Part shown: positions 44,694 to 62,182 of the stretch, piece after piece
Numbering within the stretch: the first letter of the stretch is position 1
Layout: each line of letters opens with the position of its first letter
Source: Cytophagaceae bacterium
GTDB taxonomy: Bacteria > Bacteroidota > Bacteroidia > Cytophagales > JAIYAX01
NCBI GenBank assembly: GCA_027488815.1
Contig: JAIYAX010000026.1
Span: 141,812-205,811, forward strand
Length of the DNA stretch: 64,000 bases
Direction: 5' to 3'
Position numbers and translations under genes: made by a program
The notes under the pieces: generated by a model
What the model was told of the DNA's origin: nothing
Databases searched by the model: none
What the model saw: only the letters and a program-made list of their open reading frames with translations

Positions 44694-44945
44694 ATGAAAG
44701 AACAACTTAAAACGATTAAAAAATCTATTTTTATAACATTCTGCGTGGTTGTTTGGTCCATACCAGCAATGTCACAACCCCCTCCATGCGACTGCACAGG
44801 CCTTACAGGCGCTGATTTGACCGCTTGTATCGAGGCTTGCGGGGGGACAAATGATGTCCCTTTAGATGATTATCTGCCCATGCTGGCTACTGCCGGGGCT
44901 GCTCTAGGGCTCTATTTCTTTATCAGGCGTAAAGCCCTTTCATAA
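44694..44945 (+). CDS. PID-CTERM-like small membrane-anchored protein
   Basis: An 83-residue protein starting 5 bases after the giant gene. It has an N-terminal signal helix (IFITFCVVVWSIPAMS), a short Cys-rich mature part (PPCDCTGLTGADLTACIEAC, four Cys) and a C-terminal tripartite tail: VPLDD, a hydrophobic helix, then RRK. The tail resembles the Bacteroidota PID-CTERM sorting signal, whose hallmark is P-I/L-D followed by a helix and basic end. The function of such peptides is unknown. Its position suggests co-expression with the T9SS cargo. Confidence 0.6.
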   Translation: MKEQLKTIKKSIFITFCVVVWSIPAMSQPPPCDCTGLTGADLTACIEACGGTNDVPLDDYLPMLATAGAALGLYFFIRRKALS

Positions 44946-45155
44946 GACCATCCTGCTCATGCCAAACAGGCTATGATAATAAGTGTTAGGCTGTACGGAT
45001 ATAAGGAACTAAATACGAAACCTAATCATCAGTTTGGGTCCAGTTAAACCCTTCTTGTATAAGTGATATCGACCTCTGATGTCTTATCCGTTCATGAGTT
45101 CATTTTTTGGTCTTCTTTCAAAAAACAGACTCCTTCCAACGATCATGAACTATTT

Positions 45156-46246
45156 TGTCCCTACGGGACAATACCAACCGAGCATACATAATTGTCAACC
45201 GATATACTGTGCCTAAAGGCACAGCCACACAACGAAACTTTTAAGCCTTAGTAGTTTAAAGCCCACTAGGGCTTGGATATCGTTAAAAAACCATGACCGA
45301 TACGCTCAGTTGTCCCGTGAGGGACAAAATCTATTGATCCTGACCATACCAAAAGATATGTTTTGGCTAAAGGCACAGCCCATCGACCAAACCTTTGGTG
45401 CCACTGCTGAAAAGCCTGATGGGGCTTCAATAGCGGTAAAAACTACGACCGATACGCTCAGTTGTCCCCTTGGGGACAAAATCTATTGATCCTGACCATA
45501 CCAAAAGATATGTTTTGGCTAAAGGCACAGCCCAGCGACCAAACCCTTAAGCCAAAGTAGTTTAAAGCCCATTAGGGCTTCAATAGCGGTAAAAACTACG
45601 ATCGATACGCTCACTTGTCCCGTGAGGGACAAAATCTATTGATCCTGACCATACCAAAAGATATGTTTTGGCTAAAGGCGCAGCCCATCGACCAAATCCT
45701 TAAGCCTTAGTAGTTTGAAGCCCATTAGGGCTTCGATAGCGGTAAAACTACGACCGATACGCTCAGTTGTCCCGTGAGGGACAAAATCTATTGATCCTGA
45801 CCATACAAAAAGATATGTTTTGGCTAAAGGCGCAGCCCATCGACCAAATCCTTAAGCCTTAGTAGTTTAAAGCCCATTAGGGCTTGGATATCGTTAAAAA
45901 ACTATGACCGATACGCTCAGTTGTCCCCTTAGGGACAAAATCTATATATCCTGACCATACCAAAAGATATGTTTTGGCTAAAGGCACAGCCCGACGACCA
46001 AACCCTTAATCCATAGTAGATAAAAGCCCATTAGGGCTTGGATATCGTTAAAAAACCATGACCGATACACTCAGTTGTCCCTTTAGGGACATAATCTATC
46101 GGTTCTAACCATACCAAAAGATATGCTTTGGCTAAAAACACAGCCAATCGACCAAACCCTTAAGCCATAGTAGTTTAAAGCCCATTAGGGCTTCAATAGC
46201 GGTAAAAACTACGACCGATACGCTCAGTTGTCCCGTGAGGGACAAA
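45156..46246. repeat. Noncoding tandem array, period 152-155 bp, three hairpins per unit
   Basis: The element TGTCCC-loop-GGGACA starts at 45156, 45311, 45463, 45616, 45768, 45922, 46076 and 46229, giving seven periods of 152-155 bases and a truncated eighth unit. Each unit also has a GTGCC/GGCAC-type element (clear in unit 1, partly decayed to GGCTAAAGGCACAGCC later) and AAGCCC-ATTA-GGGCTT. Between them are nearly identical spacers such as ATCCTGACCATACC and GACCGATACGCTCAG. Loops vary while stems are kept. The period is not a multiple of three, so it is not coding. The 210 bases from 44946 to the array and the 157 bases after it contain nothing I can name. Confidence 0.9.
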
Positions 46247-46403
46247 ATGTTTAAACCTATATGAAGCCAAAGGGCAGGTTCTCTGCAAAGGCATGCTAAT
46301 GGGTATCTTTTTAAGATCACATGTTTTTTGATTTGAATGCGAGTTATTAGAACTGTTTGATTTATTTGCTGGAGTGAATTTTGGCCTTATCTGTTTTTGA
46401 TAA

Positions 46404-47057
46404 ATGAATATCCTTTCCATACGTTATTTACCATTTTCTGCTGTTTTTCTAGCAGTTTTTTCAACCCTTATTCTTTCCGGCTGCTCACCTTTCAGAACAA
46501 AGACCATTTGGAAATCAATTGACAAACCCAATATAAAACTAAGTAGAATCGGTTTCAGCCAGTTGGCCAATGAGGAAGACATGGATAAACTGGTGGATGG
46601 AAGTGGAAAGAACTATAAGTTTTCGATGATGGATTATTTTTTGGACTCTGAAACAAAAGTGGAAAAGCTGCCCTTGCCGGGGTTTACCTCCATTAGCAGC
46701 ATCGATGGGCAGGAGATTGCGAAGATTTGTCAGAAAAACTATCTGGATGCCTATATATGCACTGAAATCAGGTATCTATTTGTAACCTATGAAACGGCTA
46801 CCCTGATTGGCAACTTCAATAAACGTCAAAGCGAAGATATCTTTATTGAGCAAATTATATTCGATAGAAATGGTGATCCGCTCATGTATGTTCAGCACAA
46901 TACTTTTTCTGGCCCTTTGTTGACTTACTTTTCCTTCCGGTATGGCAAGAATTTGTTCGATCCTATTCAATATGACGGTTCAATTTCAAAGTCTAAACGT
47001 ACCATCTCTGAAGGGGTCAGAAGATGCCTTCGTAGAATTGAACGAAGAATGAAGTAA
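46404..47057 (+). CDS. Putative lipoprotein of unknown function
   Basis: A 217-residue protein with a lipoprotein signal (hydrophobic residues 9-24, lipobox LSGC near Cys27). I recognise no family. The body is mixed alpha/beta with a central SSIDGQEIAKICQKNYLDAYI and TYETATLIGNFNKRQSED, and a very basic C-terminus (SEGVRRCLRRIERRMK). It follows the 153-bp repeat array by about 150 bases and is isolated from other plus-strand genes. Confidence 0.65.
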   Translation: MNILSIRYLPFSAVFLAVFSTLILSGCSPFRTKTIWKSIDKPNIKLSRIGFSQLANEEDMDKLVDGSGKNYKFSMMDYFLDSETKVEKLPLPGFTSISSIDGQEIAKICQKNYLDAYICTEIRYLFVTYETATLIGNFNKRQSEDIFIEQIIFDRNGDPLMYVQHNTFSGPLLTYFSFRYGKNLFDPIQYDGSISKSKRTISEGVRRCLRRIERRMK

Positions 47058-62070: not shown

Positions 62071-62182
62071 TCTCCATTATCCATTCTCAATTCTCAATTC
62101 TCAATTCTCAATTCTCCATTATCCATTCCCCATTATCATTCTCAATTATCCATTATCCATTATTCATTATTCATTCTCAATC
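62071..62182. repeat. Low-complexity A/T-C repeat, right flank of the four-helix-bundle gene
   Basis: Degenerate copies of CCATTATC, CAATTCTC and CATTATTCATT fill this stretch, including four or five consecutive CAATTCT units near 62087-62114. On the other strand it reads as GATAATGG/GAGAATTG words, the opposite orientation to the 61431 element. Strand slippage is expected here. It directly abuts the end of the phoH gene. Confidence 0.75.

Follow-up and report, generated by a model that had tools for sequence, protein, structure and literature searches.

The hairpin array described here is quite likely a non-autonomous, REP-like family of DNA substrates of an HUH Y1 transposase (TnpA) of subclass 1.2. 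We observed a linkage of the hairpins to tnpA, a fixed geometry, a pairing kept over changing letters, an ordered orientation and a co-variation with the enzyme; mobilisation of the array by TnpA is what analogy with related transposases suggests. The array lies on contig JAIYAX010000026.1 of a Cytophagaceae bacterium, at 45155-46245 of the window, i.e., the whole stretch of 64,000 nucleotides that was analyzed, counted from its first letter. It is flanked by two same-strand genes (44694-44945 and 46404-47057), and TRF reported a single array (45213-46248, period 154, 6.8 copies, score 1502).

The three hairpin types were named A (TTGTCCC/GGGACAA), B (GTGCC/GGCAC) and C (AAGCCC/GGGCTT), and the motif was abbreviated m. 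The eight TGTCCC/GGGACA elements at a spacing of 152-155 given in a preliminary description were all recovered as A elements, starting at 45156, 45311, 45463, 45616, 45768, 45922, 46076 and 46229 and spaced by 155, 152, 153, 152, 154, 154 and 153 bp. Their loops are, in order, TAC, GTGA, CTTG (CCCTTGGGG), GTGA, GTGA, CTTA, TTTA and GTGA. Unit 1 consists of A, B, C and then a second, inverted A, with neighbours 51-53 bp apart; the outer A pair is inverted by flank and loop and the inner B/C pair by motif, in the order A> m>B C<m <A. Six repeats follow, each made of a degenerate B, C<m and <A and 152-154 bp long. The features are listed below, with p values from a matrix that was built solely from other species and applied to the flanks of each perfect hairpin of the window.

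45155..46245, no strand: whole hairpin array, a complete unit and six repeats
45155..45327, no strand: complete unit of four hairpins (A> m>B C<m <A), whose order recurs in the array that terminates contig C5
45155..45171, + strand: A hairpin TTGTCCC-TAC-GGGACAA, forward loop, without motif
45192..45205, + strand: motif TTGTCAACCGATAT upstream of B (score 9.6 with the other-species matrix, empirical p 0.0002, shift 0)
45207..45224, + strand: B hairpin CTGTGCC-TAAA-GGCACAG, the sole intact B of the array
45259..45274, - strand: C hairpin AAGCCC-ACTA-GGGCTT of unit 1
45277..45290, - strand: motif beside C of unit 1 (TTTTTTAACGATAT; p 0.0001, register shift 0)
45310..45327, - strand: A hairpin, loop GTGA, end of unit 1
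45349..45366, + strand: CCAAAA-GATATG-TTTTGG in the place of B in unit 2, the 5' arm of B being lost
45412..45427, - strand: imperfect C hairpin (AAGCCTGATGGGGCTT) of unit 2, motif judged by eye only
45462..45479, - strand: A hairpin, loop CTTG
45565..45580, - strand: C hairpin of unit 3, motif at 45583-45596 (p 0.0001)
45615..45632, - strand: A hairpin, loop GTGA
45718..45733, - strand: C hairpin of unit 4, motif at 45736-45749 (p 0.0006)
45767..45784, - strand: A hairpin, loop GTGA
45870..45885, - strand: C hairpin of unit 5, motif at 45888-45901 (p 0.0001)
45921..45938, - strand: A hairpin, loop CTTA
46024..46039, - strand: C hairpin of unit 6, motif at 46042-46055 (p 0.0001)
46076..46091, - strand: A hairpin, loop TTTA
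46178..46193, - strand: C hairpin of unit 7, motif at 46196-46209 (p 0.0001)
46228..46245, - strand: last A hairpin, loop GTGA, array end

The AAGCCC/GGGCTT stem was present in 7/7 units, with an imperfect copy at 45412. The GTGCC/GGCAC stem was intact in unit 1 only (45207-45224), its 5' arm being missing in units 2-7, where an unrelated CCAAAA/TTTTGG stem lies near the degenerate B (similar in units 3, 4 and 6, altered in 5 and 7). Three hairpins per unit, as first proposed, thus exist in unit 1 but not in units 2-7, and of the two other stems said to occupy fixed places only that of C recurs. In units 2-7, variation affected 1/14 columns of the A stem and 1/12 of the C stem, 3/4 loop columns for both A and C, and 35/105 spacer columns, in agreement with the earlier view of constant stems and free loops. 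Folding of the units as single strands, which had been proposed as a check, gave z values of -4.1 to -5.6 (DNA parameters, dinucleotide shuffles). Identity to the query unit is 84-94% in units 2-7, and the sister arrays have only short stretches in common; the six near-identical 153-bp copies most likely arose later, when one damaged unit was duplicated locally in tandem. Such a duplication needs no transposase, and the regular spacing would also fit a simple satellite, in which slippage or unequal crossing-over made tandem copies of a segment that was rich in hairpins by chance, with no protein partner. We consider a simple satellite very improbable, since the three stem words occur in equal order elsewhere in the genome with a reversed control of zero, the in-register motif was predicted from other species and the linkage to tnpA extends across many genera. 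This reading probably accounts for the local copy number only.

The genome scan for the hairpin words, suggested in the preliminary description, found copies of the three stem words at three places outside the window, one of which adjoins tnpA (contig C18); the opposite outcome, a single local duplication with neither further copies nor conservation among relatives, can be excluded. The A word TTGTCCN4-6GGACAA had 17 sites genome-wide, confined to three clusters, namely the window array, the C18 array beside a Y1_Tnp gene and contig C29 (reversed control 0). Classical REPs have far more copies. Ten sites were found for the B word, in the A-word arrays and in a fourth one that contig C5 ends with (reversed control 0). 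In the C5-end array (L135:3290-3722), A> m>B C<m <A is found again, and its A stem has a changed outer pair on both sides (CTGTCCC/GGGACAG). Since contig C5 stops inside this array, the assembly breaks at repeats and the genome may hold uncounted copies. In the C18 array, two hybrid hairpins AAGCCCGTTAGGGACAAAA (L011:4414 and 5115) combine a 5' arm from C with a 3' arm from A, with a junction at the GTTAGGG common to C and A; two types have thus recombined within a hairpin, and units recombine at hairpins. The C18 tnpA has hairpins on one side of the gene only, and the window array and tnpA are on different contigs. The sister arrays adjoin unrelated genes; therefore the T9SS gene cluster next to the window array, to which attention had been drawn, is an incidental neighbour. 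None of the three words was found within ~4 kb of the four other Y1_Tnp genes (C10:70040, C6:159016, C10:35109 and C17:28560). One of these four genes has an internal stop.

The C18 gene encodes a product of 163 aa with the Pfam domain Y1_Tnp, and this array-linked tnpA is encoded once in the genome. The protein scored 78 bits against the NCBIfam IS200/IS605 model NF033573, above the cut-off of 55, and the same model was matched by 30/30 aligned TnpA relatives. With the NCBIfam RAYT model NF047646, the score was 35.5 bits, below the cut-off of 80. The catalytic residues H65, H67, Y125 and Q129 are invariant in the alignment. The signature Y---Q--HH was present in 78/80 relatives, along with DH[IV]H, WQ, a length of ~150 aa, Bacteroidota hosts and a low copy number, as in TnpA-Y1 subclass 1.2 (PMC6006769). 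The enzyme carries the signature of this subclass, to which it was provisionally assigned by signature, length and hosts. A RAYT proper was rejected, because of the sub-cut-off score and of Y125 with Q129 instead of the Y---NP of RAYTs. The idea of a REP-like element with a REP-associated tyrosine transposase is thus retained as regards the Y1 gene beside the C18 array and the association across Bacteroidota, but not as regards RAYT. The AlphaFold2 model of the C18 TnpA (mean pLDDT 86) matched the fold of ISDra2 and IS608 TnpA, then that of the REP transposase 4er8, and a PADLOC search of TnpA gave no match. Subclass 1.2 has been separated from the IS-forming subclass 1.1, and its genes have been reported generally without typical IS200 end structures (Quentin 2018, PMC6006769). 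The REP search of that survey required GTAG/GTGG within 0-2 nt of a hairpin (PMC6006769) and would therefore miss the layout found here.

We analyzed the flanks of 80 tnpA relatives, taken from one genome scan, for hairpins that have CC adjacent to the loop and a stem of at least 6. NNNNCC-loop-GGNNNN hairpins occurred at 2.07/kb within 300 bp of tnpA, at 0.47/kb from 300 to 700 bp and at 0.03-0.06/kb beyond 700 bp, with at most 0.03/kb for the GG..CC control. The near-gene enrichment is 40-60x in comparison with the sequence beyond 700 bp, for a hairpin form that was picked after inspecting the 80 loci and for which the Flavobacterium loci described below are the new-data test. Most neighbouring hairpins are separated by 49-54 bp (about 51 bp), with a clustering at 50-54 bp, or approximately five helical turns, across the phylum, and the stems vary by species (CGTCCC, CATCCC, TGCTCC, GGCTCC and others). 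The hairpin family flanks tnpA in Bacteroidota and in some phyla near it. A derived tree clade of ~30 relatives (L069-L113) has almost no such hairpins near tnpA, either through a possible loss or because it may rely on different ends. Array presence was not clustered on the TnpA tree beyond shuffles (86/500); the rows of this tree include the C10 copy of the same genome (in a wrong frame) and the degraded L036, both on long branches and used for no claim. Upstream of tnpA in two Flavobacterium loci, L046 and L047, we observed a different hairpin, CAACGGGT-TTCA-ACCCGTTG, with a 129-bp period in L046.

The motif that flanks the AAGCCC hairpins was missing from the preliminary description. It reads TTTCTAYMRAYAT and belongs to one hairpin class only, its TTCTACC portion standing exactly 7 nt before the stem. 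TTCTACC (at least 6/7 letters) was found at gap 7 before a 6-bp stem in 29 flanks from 15 loci, versus 0-2 flanks at each of the remaining gaps between 0 and 29. CTACC at gap 7 predominates, and GTAG at gaps 0-2 was found in 2/245 flanks. In a non-circular test, the motif was located by sequence alone and the pairing of the following bases was scored afterwards. A perfect stem was present at the expected offset for 41/127 motifs and for none at 13 other offsets. At least 5/6 pairs were formed after 79/127 motifs near tnpA versus 1/52 far from it, and the pairing was maintained over 34 different stem sequences. Motif distance increased with TnpA distance (Mantel r 0.41, p 0.0002, with host relatedness partly remaining); the corresponding values for the spacer control were r 0.04 and p 0.29. 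Identical motifs were found in different phyla (L039, Saprospiraceae, and L044, Ignavibacteria), which argues for the enzyme, not host kinship, behind the motif variants. In the window, the other-species matrix marked the left flank of the intact B hairpin and the right flanks of six C hairpins, all at shift 0 with p ≤0.0006, and 0/8 A hairpins. This match ties the window array to the TnpA family with no use of sequence from its own genome.

An independent test was made in Flavobacterium. Of 121 genomes of this genus, 55 have a tnpA related to that of F. collinsii, and flanking hairpins were found at 28/29 loci (8.46/kb within 150 bp versus 0.07/kb at 1-1.5 kb), counts which, like those of the 80 relatives, come from related genomes and are not independent data. 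Within 100 bp, the loops were reversed in 27/27 classifiable hairpins on the left and forward in 26/26 on the right, the sides being left and right of the gene in loci that are not all oriented to the gene strand. When applied to the 80-locus set, the low threshold of this test (stem 5) brings in chance hairpins that are unclassified. The Flavobacterium loci are arranged as C<m <A tnpA A> m>B, in which the gene fills the gap between the inverted A hairpins. The number of AGTCCC hairpin matches per genome had a median of 19 with a tnpA of at least 70% identity versus 0 without tnpA (p 1e-7). Large Flavobacterium genomes hold more hairpins and more tnpA, and a size-matched test was weaker (p 0.002-0.004); in genomes of at least 5 Mb, the difference between those with a tnpA of at least 70% identity and the rest persisted (p 0.004). 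Up to 47 strand-counted matches were found per genome. An orthologous intergenic site measures 609 bp and holds an array in F. collinsii; in a congener it measures 601 bp and holds a different array, whereas in three other species it is 256-269 bp long and free of these hairpins, so that arrays are present or absent according to species.

These data also bear on the possibility that a nucleoid protein, gyrase or a replication factor of the host uses the hairpins as its sites, tnpA only inserting preferentially there. A spacing of 50-54 bp, about five turns, would set such sites on one face of the duplex, and at least 4 hairpin matches were present in 5/66 Flavobacterium genomes without detected tnpA. 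Nevertheless, the motif variants track the TnpA tree whereas the spacer does not, L039 and L044 share identical motifs, and the hairpin number depends on having a closely related tnpA, and the orientation about the gene is perfectly ordered. We therefore regard host sites as extremely unlikely.

We also considered a role of the hairpins as RNA (small RNAs, attenuators or mRNA stabilisers), with the link to tnpA explained by control of that gene. Conserved stems with free loops would be expected of such RNAs, and in many Flavobacterium loci the A hairpins lie 12-25 nt from the ends of tnpA, where they could affect its mRNA. By contrast, a search of the array region against Rfam gave no match up to E=1, promoter-like sites in the array did not exceed the chance level and its interior had no terminator-like site, so that the small-RNA source first proposed received no support. 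A reading of the hairpins as terminators was rejected on the same absence of internal terminator-like sites. In addition, arrays were found far from tnpA as well, and the symmetry of both gene sides is predicted by DNA ends and not by RNA. An RNA role thus seems to us to have very little chance of being correct.

Returning to a DNA substrate of TnpA, the analogy with IS608, ISDra2 and the E. coli TnpA-REP system suggests that TnpA would bind the folded hairpins on single-stranded DNA and would cut near the motif. The motif-bounded units could then be excised, joined or copied, and the arrays would spread to new intergenic sites. As the motif stands, in related loci, between A and B or C, it defines two kinds of segment, A-tnpA-A (or a gene-less A-A) and B-C, and this parsing is what a single-strand transposase with subterminal hairpins would be expected to produce. 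On balance, we lean towards the broader view that subclass 1.2 has a DNA system of its own, made of alternating motif-bounded A-A and B-C units with hairpins about five helical turns apart. This system would extend through Bacteroidota and phyla near it and would add a third partnership of hairpins and HUH enzymes to those of IS200/IS605 and REP/RAYT.

Most of what is known about REP/RAYT biology comes from Proteobacteria. Like the REPtrons (Nunvar 2010, PMC2817692; PMC8266576), the system found here has a Y1 gene between inverted hairpins, additional hairpin clusters elsewhere, a hairpin number linked to the gene and a co-variation of DNA and protein. It differs from them by the absence of the GTAG/GTGG foot, replaced by a distant motif on one hairpin class, by the ~51 bp spacing, by two to three stem types per array and by tens rather than hundreds of copies. 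With IS200/IS605 (IS608, ISDra2) it shares the closest solved structures, the protein model and inverted subterminal hairpins that bound the gene, but it has long non-coding arrays of many hairpins without defined IS ends. REPINs and BIMEs (PMC3116915) likewise build composite units and arrays from inverted hairpin pairs; the system found here differs by the nested order A> m>B C<m <A, by its motif-bearing and motif-less types and by tnpA in the A-A gap. Hairpins with a Y1 transposase are a system of a known kind; what is new lies in the subclass of the enzyme, the rule that relates motif, gap and stem, the existence of two classes of hairpin and the phylum. A search of open-access papers gave no description of hairpin arrays for subclass 1.2. 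The subclass 1.2 TnpA gains a likely DNA partner where the 2018 survey, the first to define this subclass, gave none, and the layout provides an annotation rule for an otherwise unnamed class of Bacteroidota intergenic repeats. Since motif, gap, stem and orientation are precise, the question of the substrate becomes a direct binding and cleavage assay.

Elsewhere in the window, at 62071-62175, we observed an imperfect intergenic array of ~15 copies of 7-bp units (TCCATTA / TCTCAAT).
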